A DNA stretch of 48,261 bases, from the NCBI GenBank assembly GCA_003282975.1, contig QBYD01000009.1, forward strand, positions 1-48,261, given 5' to 3'. Both the position numbers and the translations under genes were made by a program. The notes beneath the pieces were generated by a model, which was not told where the DNA came from, did no database searches, and saw only the letters and a list, made by a program, of their open reading frames with translations. This document shows, one piece after another, positions 5,798 to 48,261 of this stretch (position 1 is its first letter; each line of letters starts with the position of its first letter). Source of the stretch: Pelagibacteraceae bacterium AG-325-C10 (lineage in GTDB: Bacteria > Pseudomonadota > Alphaproteobacteria > Pelagibacterales > Pelagibacteraceae).

Positions 5798-6566
5798 TTA
5801 TACCAATTTTTGGTGAAGAAGCATTTCCATACAAATATTTATCAATTCGTCCAGCTAAATAAGATTGTCTACCTGCAATAACGGCATTTTTAAATGCAAG
5901 AGCCATATCAAATGGTTTTTTTGCTTTTGCTATTGCAGTATTGACTAAAACTCCATCACAACCTAGCTCCATAGCAATAGTTGCATCAGATGCTTGACCT
6001 AAGCCAGCATCTATAATCAAAGGCAACTTAGTTTGATTTCTAATAATCTTAATATTGATTTTATTTTGAATACCCAAGCCTGATCCAATTGGTGCAGCTA
6101 AAGGCATTATTGCATCGGCTCCAGAATTTTCTAATCGTTTAGCCATTAAAGGATCATCATTACAGTAAACCATAACTTTAAATCCTTCTTTGGCTAAAAC
6201 CTCTGTAGATTTCAAAGTTTCAATCATATCAGGAAATAAATTTTGCTTATCGCCAAGAACCTCTAATTTAACTAGCTTCCATCCTCCTATTTCTCTAGCA
6301 AGCCTCAAAGTTCTCAACGCTTCATTTGAATTAAAGCATCCTGCTGTATTTGGTAAATATGTTATTTTTTTTGGATCGATGTAATCCATTAGAAGAGGTT
6401 TATTTTTGTCAATTATATTTACTCTTCTAACTGCAACAGTTACAATTTCAGCTCCAGAAAGTTTAATAGCTTTTGCACATTCAGTCATACTTTTGTATTT
6501 ACCAGTGCCAACAATTAATCGAGAATTAAATTTTTTTTTTGCAATTACTAATTTTTCATTTTTCAT
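5790..6566 (-). CDS. thiG: Thiazole synthase
   Basis: ThiG (258 residues) forms the thiazole phosphate ring of thiamin from deoxyxylulose phosphate, dehydroglycine or iminoglycine, and the ThiS thiocarboxylate. Visible family blocks are [11 protein letters not shown] near the N-terminus, [11 protein letters not shown] containing the Schiff-base lysine, the phosphate-binding [13 protein letters not shown], and [10 protein letters not shown] with [14 protein letters not shown] toward the end. Length is normal. It directly follows thiS (TAA next to ATG), the usual arrangement. Cultured SAR11 strains are known to need the pyrimidine half of thiamin (HMP) but can make the thiazole half, which fits this pair. 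No thiC is present in the window. Confidence 0.95.
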
Positions 6567-6785
6567 TTATCCACCTCCAATAAAATGAACTATTTCAATT
6601 TTATCATTTTTTTTTAGAATAATTCTATTAATTTTTTTTTTATCTACTATTTCTTGATTATGTTCAATTGCTACTTTTTTTATTGGAATATTAAGATTTT
6701 TAACTAAGTCTGATATACTATATTTTACTGGAATAGATTTAACTTTACCATTTACTCTAATTTGTATTTTTTTTATTTTTTGCAT
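6567..6785 (-). CDS. thiS: Sulfur carrier protein ThiS
   Basis: A 72-residue ubiquitin-like carrier ending in HFIGGG. The terminal Gly-Gly is adenylated and converted to a thiocarboxylate that donates sulfur to ThiG. The IQIRVNGK opening and the ISDLVKNLNI segment resemble other ThiS proteins. It is slightly longer than the usual 62-68 residues because of a basic N-terminal extension (MQKIKKIQ). It is translated immediately ahead of thiG and is divergent from aroQ, with only 16 bases between start codons, so promoters must overlap coding sequence or lie inside the neighbouring genes. Confidence 0.92.
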   Translation of the reverse strand: MQKIKKIQIRVNGKVKSIPVKYSISDLVKNLNIPIKKVAIEHNQEIVDKKKINRIILKKNDKIEIVHFIGGG

Positions 6786-6801
6786 CGTATATAAGTGTTG
6801 A

Positions 6802-7242
6802 ATGAATAATAAAATAATTATTATTAATGGGCCAAATCTTAATCTATTAGGTGAAAGAGAACAATCACAATATGGGTCAAAGACTTTTAAAGAATTAAAA
6901 GAGAATTGTATAAAAAAATCTAATGAGATTGGAATTGAATTAAAGTTTACTCAATCAAATATTGAAGGTGAGTTAGTAAGTTTGATTCAAAATACCAGAA
7001 ATGAATATGATGGAATGATAATAAATGCAGCAGGATTTACTCATACATCAGTTGCTATTAGAGATGCACTTGAATTATTTAAAAAACCAATAATTGAATT
7101 ACATATTTCGAATATATATAAAAGAGAAGAATTCAGACAAAAGTCTTTGATAAGCGATGTGGTAACAGGGGGAATTTTTGGTTTAGGGACTGAAGGCTAT
7201 ATTTTAGCCATAATTTCATTACAAAAGATCTTAAAAAAATGA
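6802..7242 (+). CDS. aroQ: 3-dehydroquinate dehydratase, type II
   Basis: Dehydrates 3-dehydroquinate to 3-dehydroshikimate in the shikimate route to aromatic amino acids. The 146-residue length and the blocks INGPNLNLLGERE (with the catalytic Tyr following in QYGS), NAAGFTHTSVAIRDAL, ELHISNIYKREEFR and GVITGFG-like TGGIFGLGTEGY identify the small dodecameric type II enzyme. It overlaps accB by 4 bases (ATGA). The aroQ-accB-accC order is common in proteobacteria, so this is probably one transcript. Confidence 0.95.
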   Translation: MNNKIIIINGPNLNLLGEREQSQYGSKTFKELKENCIKKSNEIGIELKFTQSNIEGELVSLIQNTRNEYDGMIINAAGFTHTSVAIRDALELFKKPIIELHISNIYKREEFRQKSLISDVVTGGIFGLGTEGYILAIISLQKILKK

Positions 7243-7673
7243 AAATAGATAAAAGTATTATTAAAGAATTAAGTGACTATTTAGATGAATTTAATCTCAC
7301 TGAAATAGAAATTACAGAAAAAGATACTAAAATAAAAGTTTCAAAAAATAATGTATCTATCAGCAATCAACCAATAACAACTTCAGCTTCTTCAACTATT
7401 AAAAATGAAAATGCTGATAATAGTTCTAATGTAAATTCTGGAACTGAAATCACCTCACCAATCATAGGAACTGCGTATCATGCACCAGAACCCGGTGCTA
7501 AAAAATTTGTTGAACTTGGTAAAAAAATAAAAAAAGGTGATACCATCATGATCGTTGAAGCTATGAAAACAATGAATCATGTTCCTTCAACAGCTGATGG
7601 AATAGTAAAAGAAATTTGTGTTGAAGATGGTCATCCAGTTGAATTTGGCCAAACTATTATCATTTTAGAGTAA
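7239..7673 (+). CDS. accB: Biotin carboxyl carrier protein of acetyl-CoA carboxylase
   Basis: BCCP carries the biotin that moves CO2 from biotin carboxylase to carboxyltransferase in the first step of fatty acid synthesis. The protein has 144 residues: an N-terminal dimer region (1-38), a flexible Ser/Asn/Thr-rich linker (about 39-72), and a C-terminal biotinyl domain with EAMKTMN, where Lys 110 is the biotinylation site. The thumb-like segment YHAPEPGAKKFVELG typical of acetyl-CoA carboxylase BCCP is present. It starts inside the aroQ stop and ends 4 bases before accC. Confidence 0.96.
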   Translation: MKIDKSIIKELSDYLDEFNLTEIEITEKDTKIKVSKNNVSISNQPITTSASSTIKNENADNSSNVNSGTEITSPIIGTAYHAPEPGAKKFVELGKKIKKGDTIMIVEAMKTMNHVPSTADGIVKEICVEDGHPVEFGQTIIILE

Positions 7674-44720: not shown

Positions 44721-44948
44721 GTGAACAAAGAAAACGCAAGTAAACTCTGGAAAATTATTCAGGAAGCTGGCGATTATTTGGGCGATCAGCTGCCCGACCA
44801 CCCAAATCATCCTAAAGGAAGAAACCCCTACGCCCATGTAGCGATATGTGTGAAAGATAATTTTAATGCAAGTTATAAAGATATTCCCGATGAAAAATTT
44901 AATGAGGTGGTAGATTATATTGAATATTTAAAACAAAACCCTAGTTAG
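44721..44948 (+). CDS. Conserved-looking small hypothetical protein
   Basis: A 75-residue soluble protein with ASKLWKIIQEAGDYLGDQLP, DHPNHPKGRNPYAHVAICVK and FNEVVDYIEYLKQNP. The start is GTG at 44721; an in-frame stop lies seven codons upstream, so there is no longer form. The middle (about 44760-44850) is visibly richer in G and C than the neighbours. The HPNHPKGRNPYAH segment with three His residues could bind metal, but this is only a suggestion. The family is not recognised. Its end overlaps the threonine aldolase gene tail-to-tail by 8 bases. Confidence 0.65.
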   Translation: MNKENASKLWKIIQEAGDYLGDQLPDHPNHPKGRNPYAHVAICVKDNFNASYKDIPDEKFNEVVDYIEYLKQNPS

Positions 44949-45993
44949 TATTATTAAGTATACCTAAAAATTCATCAACATCATTGTCGTTAGTATTCCA
45001 AGCAGTTACTAATCTCACAGCTTTACCATCCCATTCATCCTCATTAATTGTATAGCCTTCAGAGTTTAAATTATCGATTTTATTTCTAGGAAATGTAGCA
45101 AAAATTTCATTGGCTTCAGTTGGATAAGATAAATTTATATCAGAATGAGTATTTAACCCCTCGCTTAATCTTTTTCCCATTTTATTTGCATGTTTGGCGT
45201 TTTTAAGCCACACATCGTTAGTTATATATGCATCCAGTTGAGCAGAGACGAAACGCATTTTAGATAATAAATGCCCTGCTCTTTTCATTAAAAAAGCAAC
45301 ATTACCAACTAAATCTTTTTTAAAGAAAATTATAGCTTCTGCAGCTATACAACCATTTTTGGTTGCTCCAAATGATAATACATCAATACCTGACTTCCAA
45401 GTCATTTCAGCTGGTGTTACATCAAGTGACACTAATGCATTAGCAAACCGTGCTCCATCCATATGCATATTTAAATTATGATTATGAGTAACATCTGATA
45501 TTTTTTTAATTTCATCTAATTGATAAACTTCTCCTGTTTCACAAACTTGTGTAATACTCACTGATGAGGGTTGAGTATGGTGTACAATTCCTTTTCCAGT
45601 AATCGCTTCATCTAGTTCTTCTGCAGTTATTTTTCCTTTAACACCCTGAAGAGTAACAAGTTTTCCACCACCAGTATAGAATTCTGGAGCACCACATTCA
45701 TCGGTGTTTATATGGGACATCTTATGACAATAAATATTACCAAATGATGGCGTCATCGTTGATAAAGCTAAAGCATTAGCTGCAGTTCCTGATGCAGTAG
45801 GAAAAACTATAACTTCTTTTTCAAAAATTTCAGAAAATTTATCTTGAAGTTCGGTTGAAATTTGATCGTTTCCATAAGGAGTGCTGTCTCCTTCATTTGC
45901 TTTGATAATTGCATCTAATACTTCTGGACAAGCACCAGCAACATTATCTGATGCAAATTTAACTCTTTCTCTTTTAGTTTTAATTTTTGCCAT
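44941..45993 (-). CDS. ltaE: Low-specificity L-threonine aldolase
   Basis: A 350-residue PLP enzyme of fold type I that cleaves L-threonine or allo-threonine to glycine and acetaldehyde. It shows FASDNVAGACPEVLDAI, GTAANALAL, MHMDGARFANA (PLP-contacting Asp and Arg) and LSFGATKNG with the Schiff-base lysine. It starts 2 bases after the amidinotransferase stop and is third in the creatinase-AGAT-ltaE operon. Glycine from this enzyme could feed the amidinotransferase; a related beta-hydroxy amino acid could also be the true substrate. Confidence 0.9.
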   Translation of the reverse strand: MAKIKTKRERVKFASDNVAGACPEVLDAIIKANEGDSTPYGNDQISTELQDKFSEIFEKEVIVFPTASGTAANALALSTMTPSFGNIYCHKMSHINTDECGAPEFYTGGGKLVTLQGVKGKITAEELDEAITGKGIVHHTQPSSVSITQVCETGEVYQLDEIKKISDVTHNHNLNMHMDGARFANALVSLDVTPAEMTWKSGIDVLSFGATKNGCIAAEAIIFFKKDLVGNVAFLMKRAGHLLSKMRFVSAQLDAYITNDVWLKNAKHANKMGKRLSEGLNTHSDINLSYPTEANEIFATFPRNKIDNLNSEGYTINEDEWDGKAVRLVTAWNTNDNDVDEFLGILNNTN

Positions 45994-45995
45994 AT

Positions 45996-47111
45996 CTATT
46001 GCTTTGGAAAATAATCTTTAAGATCACCTTCTCGATAAACATCTGCAGTACAACAATGAAGTCCACCTCCAAATGCGTAAGCATCTCTAAGTTCTATAGG
46101 AACTACTTCCATACCTAATTTGTCTAATTGTTCAGCTTGATAAACTTCACTCTTTTCAACACAAACTGTTTTTGGGTCAAGAACTAACACATTCATTGAT
46201 AGCCATGTAGATGAATAACATAAGGGAGGTGGTTCATTATGTGCGGGTTGAGCACTATCAATAATTTCCCAGCCATTATCTTCAAATAGTTTTCTTTGTT
46301 CTTTTGGCAGTCTTCTTTGAGGATTGTTAATAATTAATCCCTCTTTAATAGGAGTGAAAGTTGCATCAATATGTATTGGATAAGGGTCACCTGGAAAGTT
46401 AACTGCATGAACTCTATGATCTTTGTAATGTCTTTTTAACCAATCAATACCTTTTAGATTTGTAGTAAAACCATGTTGAACGACCAAGTCTTTACCAAAT
46501 CTTAAAACATCAGCGGCATCAAATAACGGCTCTTCATCTGTTGTTACAAAAAACTTATCTTCAGTCCATTGCAACCTTTTTTGAATACCAATCTTATCAG
46601 ATAAATAATCTTTTCGATAATCAGCATCTGTCAGTCTTGGTTTTGGAGCTGACTCATGCCTCATATTTGGATCAGAGTTATAATAATCTTTTAATAAGGG
46701 TCGGTAACAAAGATATTCAAACCATCTACAACGATAACTCATAGTTGCTTCTAAAATTTCATTTCCAACAGTAAGCAAAACATCTCTTGGAGGCATACAT
46801 CCAAACATAGTTTCTGCTTCCCAATCTGGAGTAGATGTTTTTTGATTAAAATCTATTGGTGTTGGACGATCTACTTTAATTCCTTTTTTTTCAAGCAAGC
46901 TTGCGAAATTATCCAAAAGTTGATTTGCTTTATCAACAGTATCTTTTGTTCTAGGACCAAACTGACCTCTCATATCACTATCCTCTGGAACCTTAGCATC
47001 CAGAGCTGGTTCTGGTGCTGGAATACATGTTCCATCCGCTCTACCAACAATTACATGTTTTAACGGATCCCATTCATTCCAACTATTAACTATAGTCTTC
47101 TGATCATTCAT
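45996..47111 (-). CDS. Glycine amidinotransferase-like enzyme (AGAT family)
   Basis: A 371-residue amidinotransferase of the AGAT/StrB family. The catalytic triad is visible: Asp in LFDAADVLRFGKDLVV, His in PIHIDATFTPI, and the Cys nucleophile at 353 in AFGGGLHCCTADVYREG, matching the GGGFHCWTCDV of human AGAT. Its N-terminus NSWNEWDPLKHVIVGRADG matches the family start, so I chose ATG at 47111, 4 bases after the creatinase stop, rather than an in-frame start 25 codons upstream. AGAT moves the amidino group from arginine to glycine, making guanidinoacetate and ornithine. The acceptor here could instead be another amine. Confidence 0.88.
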   Translation of the reverse strand: MNDQKTIVNSWNEWDPLKHVIVGRADGTCIPAPEPALDAKVPEDSDMRGQFGPRTKDTVDKANQLLDNFASLLEKKGIKVDRPTPIDFNQKTSTPDWEAETMFGCMPPRDVLLTVGNEILEATMSYRCRWFEYLCYRPLLKDYYNSDPNMRHESAPKPRLTDADYRKDYLSDKIGIQKRLQWTEDKFFVTTDEEPLFDAADVLRFGKDLVVQHGFTTNLKGIDWLKRHYKDHRVHAVNFPGDPYPIHIDATFTPIKEGLIINNPQRRLPKEQRKLFEDNGWEIIDSAQPAHNEPPPLCYSSTWLSMNVLVLDPKTVCVEKSEVYQAEQLDKLGMEVVPIELRDAYAFGGGLHCCTADVYREGDLKDYFPKQ

Positions 47112-47115
47112 AATT

Positions 47116-48261
47116 TTAATTTTGTATAATATTATTCTCAGGCCCGAAAGGAAATTTTGTAATATTCTCAGCACCTTCGTCACCAATAACTAAAATATCA
47201 TGCTCCCTATATCCACCTGCCCCTGGATTTCCTTCGGGAATCATAATCATAGGCTCCATTGAAATGACCATATTTTTTTCGAGAACAGTATCGATGTCTT
47301 CTCTAAGTTCTAATCCAGCCTCTCTTCCATAAAAATGTGAAAGAACTCCAAAAGAATGGCCATACCCAAAAGTTCGATAATGCAAATAACCAAGTTCAGC
47401 AAATAATTCATTCAGTTCATGGCATATATCAGAACATTTTACACCAGGTTTAATAAGTTCTAACCCACGTTTATGAACTTTTACATTTGCTTCCCATGCT
47501 TTAAGTGAAGCATCATCAGCATGATCTAGAAATAATGTTCTTTCTAACGCGGTATAATATCCAGAAATCATTGGAAAAGTATTTAGAGATAATATATCTC
47601 CTTTTGTTAGTTTTCTATTTGTCTTTGGATTGTGTGCGCCATCTGTATTAATCCCCGATTGAAACCAAACCCATGTATCCATATATTCTGCGCCAGGATA
47701 AGTTTTTACAATTTCTCTTTCCATTCGATCACGTCCAGCAATTGCAACTTCAATTTCTGTATTACCTTCTCTTATATTTTTAACAATTTCCTCACCACCT
47801 AGGTCAGCAATACGAGCTCCATTTTTAATAATTTCAATTTCTTCATCAGATTTAATCATTCTTAATTGCATTAATTCTTTTGAGACATCGCTAAAAACTG
47901 AAAATGTAAAAATAGATCCAATTTTTTCTCTCATATCTAGTGTTACATGATCATTCTCAAGTCCAATATTTTTAGGTGGATCATCTCTACCAATAATCGA
48001 CACAATTGCTCTAAGAAAATTATCTCTTTTCCAATCTGTATAAATTACATTATCACAGTGTGATCTTCTCCAAGGTTGACTTGCATCAATATTAGCTGAA
48101 ATAGTTGAAATTTTATTTTTAGTGATAACACATCCATAAGGTCTTCCAAAAGAGCAGTAAATAAAACCTGTATAATAAGCAATATTATGCATTGAAGTTA
48201 AAATAACCATGTCTAAATTATTTTTATCCATGACAGTTCTTAAATTATTTACTCTTTGATC
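47116..48261 (-). CDS. Creatinase (creatine amidinohydrolase), 5' end outside window
   Basis: A peptidase-M24-fold enzyme closely resembling Pseudomonas creatinase, which hydrolyses creatine to sarcosine and urea without metal. Recognisable stretches are YCSFGRPYG, ANIDASQPWRR, WFQSGINTDGAHNP (catalytic His), FPMISGYYTALERTLFLDH, YRTFGYGHSFG, AGGYREHDI and the last residues NITKFPFGPENNII. The frame stays open past ATG 48231 to the window edge, and residues DQRVNNLRTV before that ATG align with the known creatinase N-terminal region. I therefore treat the gene as truncated by about 30-40 residues, not starting at 48231. It heads the operon with the AGAT-like and threonine aldolase genes. Confidence 0.9.
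   Translation of the reverse strand, partial: DQRVNNLRTVMDKNNLDMVILTSMHNIAYYTGFIYCSFGRPYGCVITKNKISTISANIDASQPWRRSHCDNVIYTDWKRDNFLRAIVSIIGRDDPPKNIGLENDHVTLDMREKIGSIFTFSVFSDVSKELMQLRMIKSDEEIEIIKNGARIADLGGEEIVKNIREGNTEIEVAIAGRDRMEREIVKTYPGAEYMDTWVWFQSGINTDGAHNPKTNRKLTKGDILSLNTFPMISGYYTALERTLFLDHADDASLKAWEANVKVHKRGLELIKPGVKCSDICHELNELFAELGYLHYRTFGYGHSFGVLSHFYGREAGLELREDIDTVLEKNMVISMEPMIMIPEGNPGAGGYREHDILVIGDEGAENITKFPFGPENNIIQN

Follow-up and report, generated by a model that had tools for sequence, protein, structure and literature searches.

A SAR11 operon of an EamA-type permease and an AGAT-family amidinotransferase, variably joined by creatinase and threonine aldolase, with a possible role in guanidino-compound salvage

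The contig QBYD01000009.1 of Pelagibacteraceae bacterium AG-325-C10 (GenBank assembly GCA_003282975.1), a stretch of 48,261 nucleotides referred to here as the window, carries at its right end three tightly spaced genes encoding a creatinase, an amidinotransferase related to arginine:glycine amidinotransferase (AGAT) and an enzyme of the threonine aldolase type. Comparison with other SAR11 genomes showed that, where AGAT is of the same type as in the window (type 1), the core of this operon is an EamA-type permease gene together with the AGAT gene, while creatinase and aldolase are recurrent strain-specific additions at fixed positions. We propose tentatively, at a little under even confidence, that the SAR11 operon EamA-(creatinase)-AGAT-(aldolase) serves the uptake of guanidino compounds and their salvage to glycine or sarcosine, and that the window trio may be the distal part of such an operon.

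The gaps between the genes are 2 bases (aldolase/AGAT) and 4 bases (AGAT/creatinase), and the gene identities, order, minus strand and tight spacing given in the initial annotation were all borne out by the coordinates. The arrangement is not due to chance, since the products resemble solved structures (521 bits for creatinase to 7yto, 295 bits for AGAT to 1jdx and 374 bits for the aldolase to 1v72) and the genes are neighbours in further genomes as well. The genes upstream of the contig end, which the initial annotation had proposed to read for sarcosine or urea functions, were read in relatives, and an EamA-type permease gene was found directly upstream of the creatinase gene. In the first ten relatives (open reading frames (ORFs) called mechanically, as in the other loci read) the permease was upstream of AGAT in all ten, with creatinase between them in seven and the aldolase after AGAT in seven. 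Among the SAR11 type-1 AGAT loci with enough flanking sequence (n=54), EamA was present in 54, creatinase in 19, the aldolase in 37 and all four genes in 13. No solved relative of the EamA protein was found at E 0.1.

A survey at the level of genomes covered 58 genomes of our choice, mostly the more complete ones together with some lacking AGAT, and 50 of them belong to the window's genus. Within the genus, AGAT and EamA were both found in 44 genomes and neither in 6; creatinase was found in 20, the aldolase in 23 and all four in 11. The window's own genome is 80% complete, so genes missing from it are weak absences. EamA and AGAT were linked, directly or with creatinase between them, in 41 of the 42 genus genomes having coordinates for both, the exception being G074; for G036 and G086 the presence of AGAT was taken from the order-wide search, which gave no coordinates. 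Creatinase adjoins AGAT in 20 of 21 genomes holding both (exception G006) and the aldolase does so in 21 of 22 (exception G074). The presence of creatinase was not associated with that of the aldolase (Fisher p = 0.39, genomes being treated without regard to kinship), and on a quickly built AGAT tree, with 8 of 48 inner branches starred and 21 open, creatinase presence changed at least 4 times and aldolase presence at least 8 times. EamA and AGAT are therefore regarded as the core, given the 54 of 54 loci and 41 of 42 linkages, whereas creatinase and aldolase come and go. The trio itself is adjacent in 11 of 50 genus genomes and 13 of 54 loci, not in a single genome only, and yet its treatment as an evolutionary unit had to be rejected, because two of its members come and go without association with each other and the stable pair is EamA and AGAT. 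Thus the unit for guanidino compounds with a link to glycine, as first annotated, is kept as the best reading, but not with the trio as that unit.

Three loci showed unusual arrangements. In G074 the permease gene is followed directly by the aldolase gene, AGAT being gone from this place (L053, 8832-9878), and an AGAT of another type (type 2, described below) is located elsewhere in the genome (L052). In G006, which belongs to a different SAR11 family, a creatinase 84% identical to that of the window lies away from AGAT and EamA (L051, 2205-3422), and transfer is possible. The short contig L060 holds an intact AGAT gene and, near its other end, a second, broken AGAT fragment with a stop inside (488-829 and 6552-7667); a small gene of the 75-amino-acid kind described below is found at both copies, possibly by duplication or as an assembly artefact.

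The M24-family protein of the window is a creatinase (EC 3.5.3.3) as judged from its sequence. It matched three solved creatinases over the full length with 521, 515 and 480 bits, among them 7yto and 1chm, which we take to be the Alcaligenes and Pseudomonas putida enzymes, and the alignment showed that all nine listed active-site residues are kept, presumed here to be F62, R64, H232, Y258, E262, H324, R335, E358 and H376 in P. putida numbering. The best prolidase reached 89 bits, so that a Xaa-Pro peptidase was ruled out and the creatinase-like call of the initial annotation stands. Some 24 N-terminal residues are missing from the window copy, solely because the contig stops at 48261; an orthologue in L036, 98% identical, is intact with 405 amino acids and shares 19-25% identity with nine other M24 proteins. 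The SAR11 copy is set apart from 1chm and 7yto by sharing an operon with genes for an EamA permease and AGAT.

The amidinotransferase has human AGAT (GATM, 1jdx) as its closest solved relative. As a single sequence it scored 295 bits to this enzyme, 224 to SxtG, 208 to HsvA and 182 to StrB1, and a profile search gave 340, 263, 253 and 212 bits, respectively. The functional residues of AGAT were taken to be D170, D254, H303, D305, R322, S355 and C407 in human numbering. Alignment to human AGAT showed that the catalytic Cys407, His303, Asp170, Asp254 and Asp305 are kept, in agreement with the annotated intact Asp/His/Cys set, and so are Arg322 and Ser355, presumably the residues on the carboxylate side; human Y164 is replaced by F. 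The catalytic-motif pattern matched 119 of 123 homologous rows, which include overlapping loci from the same genome, and the four rows missing it are two distant (37-38%) genes, each seen twice. The specificity 300-flap reads DPYPI in the window and in 111 of the 123 rows, Asn300 and Met302 of human AGAT being Tyr and Ile, so that the glycine-acceptor flap residues are not kept. The SxtG flap is by alignment also unlike DPYPI. According to passages of PMC4887976 the flap is DPNPM in human AGAT, DIFPS in CyrA and DMHPM in AmtA, and changing two residues of the AmtA flap left the acceptor of that enzyme as it was. Since human AGAT and CyrA differ in the flap and both use glycine, and since the AmtA change was without effect, the flap does not fix the acceptor; with CyrA using glycine despite a different flap, DPYPI lowers the certainty about glycine and not about amidino transfer. 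Apart from the flap and the F for Y164, the SAR11 enzyme differs from human AGAT in being bacterial and operon-borne, with some copies beside catabolic genes. CyrA/AoaA, SxtG, AmtA, HsvA and StrB1 belong to the same amidinotransferase family and serve natural-product pathways (PMC4887976 and PMC3684758, in passages, and in part general knowledge), whereas no such pathway was recognised among the AGAT neighbours scanned.

The third product is similar over nearly its whole length to 1v72 (374 bits), presumably a phenylserine aldolase, and to the L-threonine aldolase 7yvr (364 bits), and thus shows full-length likeness to characterised L-threonine aldolases of the fold-type-I pyridoxal phosphate (PLP) class. 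It matched Pfam Beta_elim_lyase (PF01212) with 202 bits and keeps the motif GATKNG, whose lysine we take to be the PLP lysine. The enzyme remains under the NCBIfam cut-offs for LtaE (PRK10534; 45.9 of 312 bits) and for the guanitoxin-family GntG (74.6 of 230 bits). The homology bears out a putative glycine-releasing aldolase, as had been annotated.

Table 1. Genes of the trio at the right end of the window
Product	Position	Strand	Basis and remarks
Creatinase (creatine amidinohydrolase)	47116..48261	-	521 bits to 7yto, 515 to 1chm; N-terminus (~24 aa) past contig end
AGAT-family (arginine:glycine-type) amidinotransferase, type 1, 371 aa from ATG	45996..47111	-	295 bits to human AGAT; catalytic residues kept
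L-threonine/phenylserine-aldolase-type PLP enzyme (glycine-releasing by homology), 350 aa	44941..45993	-	Pfam Beta_elim_lyase 202 bits; 374 bits to 1v72

A 75-amino-acid ORF with a GTG start (44721-44948, plus strand) is convergent with the aldolase gene, whose end it overlaps by a few bases. Of 18 type-1 loci read, 12 have similar ORFs next to the EamA locus, and these ORFs form a cluster of 13; no match was found in Pfam or NCBIfam. No gathering-level match to known RNA families was found in the 118 kb searched, which comprised 7 of the 10 long loci, the window not being among them.

AGAT of both types was found at E <= 1e-40 in 225 of 297 genomes of the order, in 116 of the 150 of good quality and in 6 of 11 genera. 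Of 385 genomes drawn from the class, 10 had AGAT at E <= 1e-60; three of these are SAR11 and two have only distant (37-38%) homologues. Among the best 80 of 588 AGAT-family matches, 58 loci are from Pelagibacteraceae, Pelagibacterales or Pelagibacter, and one AGAT (L116) is 99% identical to that of the window.

Type-2 AGAT is 70-78% identical to type 1 and has other neighbours. In L052 it is preceded by a gene of the homocysteine methyltransferase family and a gene for an 801-amino-acid FAD/GcvT protein of the dimethylglycine/sarcosine dehydrogenase kind, and followed by a METTL27-like methyltransferase and a GbcA-like Rieske gene, with a ProX-like gene nearby. The methyltransferase was considered as a candidate for a guanidinoacetate methyltransferase and rejected, as it resembles METTL27 (77.6 bits); it scored 25.9 and 25.2 bits against glycine sarcosine N-methyltransferase and 29.7 of 350 bits in NCBIfam. 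No guanidinoacetate methyltransferase was recognised among the AGAT neighbours scanned, no genome-wide search having been made. In L046 and L056, type-2 AGAT lies in an island with a choline dehydrogenase gene (over the cut-off) and carnitine-type genes (below the cut-offs), and one or two EamA permease genes of another subfamily than the type-1 partner follow it directly (L046, 6173-7123; L056, 5837-7741), which makes a second AGAT-EamA pairing. EutA-like, DoeA-like and ATP-binding cassette (ABC) genes follow AGAT in L047, and L064 has a DoeA-like gene. The loss of type-1 AGAT from the EamA-aldolase locus of G074, with a type-2 copy in a betaine-type setting, suggests that either type can stand in for the other.

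Outside SAR11, 24 loci were considered (L083, L079 and L080 were left out), L077/L081 and L076/L082 each coming from one genome, and the AGAT ORF was resolved in all except L075, leaving 23. In L099 AGAT is accompanied by an arginase-family ureohydrolase, an M24 enzyme, a PotA-type ATPase and a binding protein; the distant genome of L074 has a divergent creatinase (59%) beside AGAT; L078 has EutA-like, OCD-family and M24 genes, and an M24-like gene lies about 5 kb from AGAT in L075. Taken together, some AGAT neighbours elsewhere would point to catabolism (betaine/sarcosine, carnitine, DoeA/EutA-like and ureohydrolase genes) and many do not.

The proposed salvage would proceed as follows. The EamA permease would import guanidinoacetate, creatine or a similar guanidino compound. 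Creatinase would convert creatine to sarcosine and urea, a step for which the homology is strong, and sarcosine could pass to glycine by way of the sarcosine oxidases/dehydrogenases predicted by homology in the window's genome. AGAT would probably work mainly in the salvage direction, forming glycine and arginine from guanidinoacetate, or a near relative of it, and ornithine; with the amidino group passed to ornithine, the nitrogen would be kept without urease. Finally, the aldolase may act on threonine or a different beta-hydroxy amino acid to free glycine, and the common product of the steps would be glycine, which SAR11 needs. Where catabolic neighbours of AGAT are present, they favour the salvage direction. 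In passages of PMC4887976, both human AGAT and CyrA accept guanidinoacetate as amidine donor, and the AmtA reaction is reversible. The role of the EamA-AGAT pair would probably be catabolic. To a more specific version, in which a catabolic SAR11 AGAT takes the amidino group from dissolved guanidinoacetate, perhaps also from creatine as a creatine:ornithine amidinotransferase, to give arginine and glycine or sarcosine, with a dedicated importer of the EamA type, we would give a probability well below even.

Sarcosine oxidase beta was over the cut-off in 21 of 22 genomes, and the window's genome has two soxB matches over it. Functions for urea, which the initial annotation had proposed to look for, are mostly lacking: a full urease match was seen in only 4 of the 39 Pelagibacterales and, among the 16 SAR11 genomes examined that bear creatinase, in 3. 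Of 40 genomes, 9 gave a match to the urease model, 8 of them over the cut-off; those counted as full-length are G010, G030, G078, G092 and the non-SAR11 G673, and partial matches (E 5e-4 to 4e-8) in G002, G004, G006, G010 and G022 were set aside. Given this rarity, creatine would supply most of these genomes with sarcosine and glycine and not with urea nitrogen. Arginase-family ureohydrolases were found in 36 of 40 genomes. Two SAR11 loci carry such an enzyme 34-35% identical to that of L099 (L167, 7743-10159; L171, 7904-15815), beside a putative aldehyde dehydrogenase gene and a putative M20 peptidase gene, and in L171 it also lies close to ABC genes resembling the ones found with type-2 AGAT in L047.

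Several observations weigh against the salvage proposal. The sequence evidence does not fix the direction of AGAT or of the permease, and many EamA proteins act as exporters. The flap DPYPI differs from those of the glycine-using human AGAT and CyrA, and the acceptor may be other than glycine. According to PMC4887976, AmtA, a relative, does not take guanidinoacetate as donor. The EamA link is confined to the type-1 AGAT of SAR11, this permease being found nearby in 0 of 20 type-2 and 0 of 25 non-SAR11 AGAT loci. The AGAT of the f2 family stands alone on its strand in 6 of 7 loci read, between a gene that we take to be rodA-like and an FAD monooxygenase gene, and the nearest EamA homologue in five f2 genomes checked is only 45-46% identical and away from AGAT. 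Most of the 23 non-SAR11 loci show, within the stretch displayed, neither a ureohydrolase (present in 4) nor an M24 gene (in 5), and the DoeA-, EutA-, SoxA-, ProX-, GbcA- and carnitine-dehydrogenase-like neighbours are below NCBIfam cut-offs. Creatinase and aldolase are often missing and occur without association between them, so that the link to glycine may be fortuitous.

If AGAT ran forward, arginine and an amine, glycine or another, would give a guanidino compound and ornithine; EamA would export the product, or it would be kept as a solute, and creatinase would be a separate catabolic gene sharing the operon. This is the physiological direction of AGAT, CyrA, AmtA and StrB1 (PMC4887976, in passages, and in part general knowledge). 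EamA is also present in the 35 of 54 loci without creatinase. We consider forward synthesis unlikely, however, because several AGAT neighbourhoods are catabolic, the scanned neighbours include no recognised guanidinoacetate methyltransferase (the search was not genome-wide, and the L052 gene is METTL27-like), and spending glycine would suit a glycine-requiring cell poorly.

Similarly improbable, in our estimate, is that AGAT works with another amine partner (a polyamine, taurine, gamma-aminobutyric acid or an ectoine-derived diamine), the real substrate being some other guanidino or amidine osmolyte and creatinase and the DoeA-like enzymes acting as parallel amidine hydrolases. The prevalence of DPYPI, unlike the published flaps (PMC4887976, in passages) and that of SxtG, would agree with this, as would the linkage of AGAT to EutA-like genes (L047, L078), DoeA-like genes (L047, L064), other M24 genes (L078, L097, L099, L101) and PotA-type ABC genes (L099 by scan; L047, L090 and L097 by similarity). 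On the other hand, the comparison of human AGAT with CyrA and the AmtA mutation, as given in that source, leave the acceptor unfixed by the flap, and L052 and L074 place AGAT in betaine/sarcosine-type or creatinase settings.

The genes could also share an operon without sharing a pathway, the aldolase especially being an unrelated passenger. SAR11 genomes are compact, and co-transcription with gaps of 2-4 bases is common in them. The lack of association between creatinase and aldolase, the changes in aldolase presence on the AGAT tree and the G074 locus, where the aldolase follows EamA with AGAT gone, are consistent with a passenger. Nevertheless, both genes adjoin AGAT in nearly every genome that holds them (20 of 21 and 21 of 22) despite repeated gain or loss, and creatinase is beside AGAT in the distant genome of L074 too, so that we hold this explanation to be a low-probability one. 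Finally, a two-step arginase shunt, in which AGAT would join the amidino group of arginine to glycine or sarcosine, and hydrolysis of the resulting guanidino compound by creatinase or a ureohydrolase would return the amine with urea (net, arginine to ornithine and urea), agrees with the guanidino/amidine hydrolases adjoining AGAT in several lineages but is very unlikely, since creatinase is missing from 35 of 54 type-1 loci, arginase-family ureohydrolases are already in 36 of 40 genomes, and the creatinase version would need sarcosine as acceptor, which to our knowledge no characterised AGAT uses.

Part of the salvage reading has precedents. In passages of PMC3686209 (2013) a SAR11 'Creatinase' cluster is listed, with genes converting glycine betaine and creatine to glycine; this shares the SAR11 creatinase and the creatine-to-glycine route with our reading, whereas its main text lacks the words 'amidinotransferase' and 'sarcosine' and the passages mention no operon with AGAT or a permease. 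Creatine conversion to sarcosine was proposed as a nitrogen source for AEGEAN169, marine Alphaproteobacteria other than SAR11 (PMC11366302, 2024, in passages), the same step as here, and the term 'amidino' is not in its main text. Bacterial creatine use in seawater is, as cited in passages of PMC11366302, the subject of Wawrik et al. 2017, a paper that may already discuss SAR11. Sun et al. 2011 (PMC3160333) covers glycine betaine and sarcosine, with no creatin-, amidino- or guanidino- words in its main text, and creatine is reported from marine samples in passages of PMC8269262. No published work on a SAR11 AGAT was found in the open-licence literature. The known part is the SAR11 creatinase, and the interesting part is the near-constant EamA-AGAT pair.

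Few cell types in the sea are as abundant as SAR11 bacteria, and in animals AGAT carries out the first step of creatine synthesis. Should the SAR11 AGAT act in salvage, these cells would be able to draw glycine and arginine nitrogen from guanidino compounds, the AGAT reaction would gain a catabolic role, and some of the ocean's commonest bacteria would recover guanidino nitrogen without urease.

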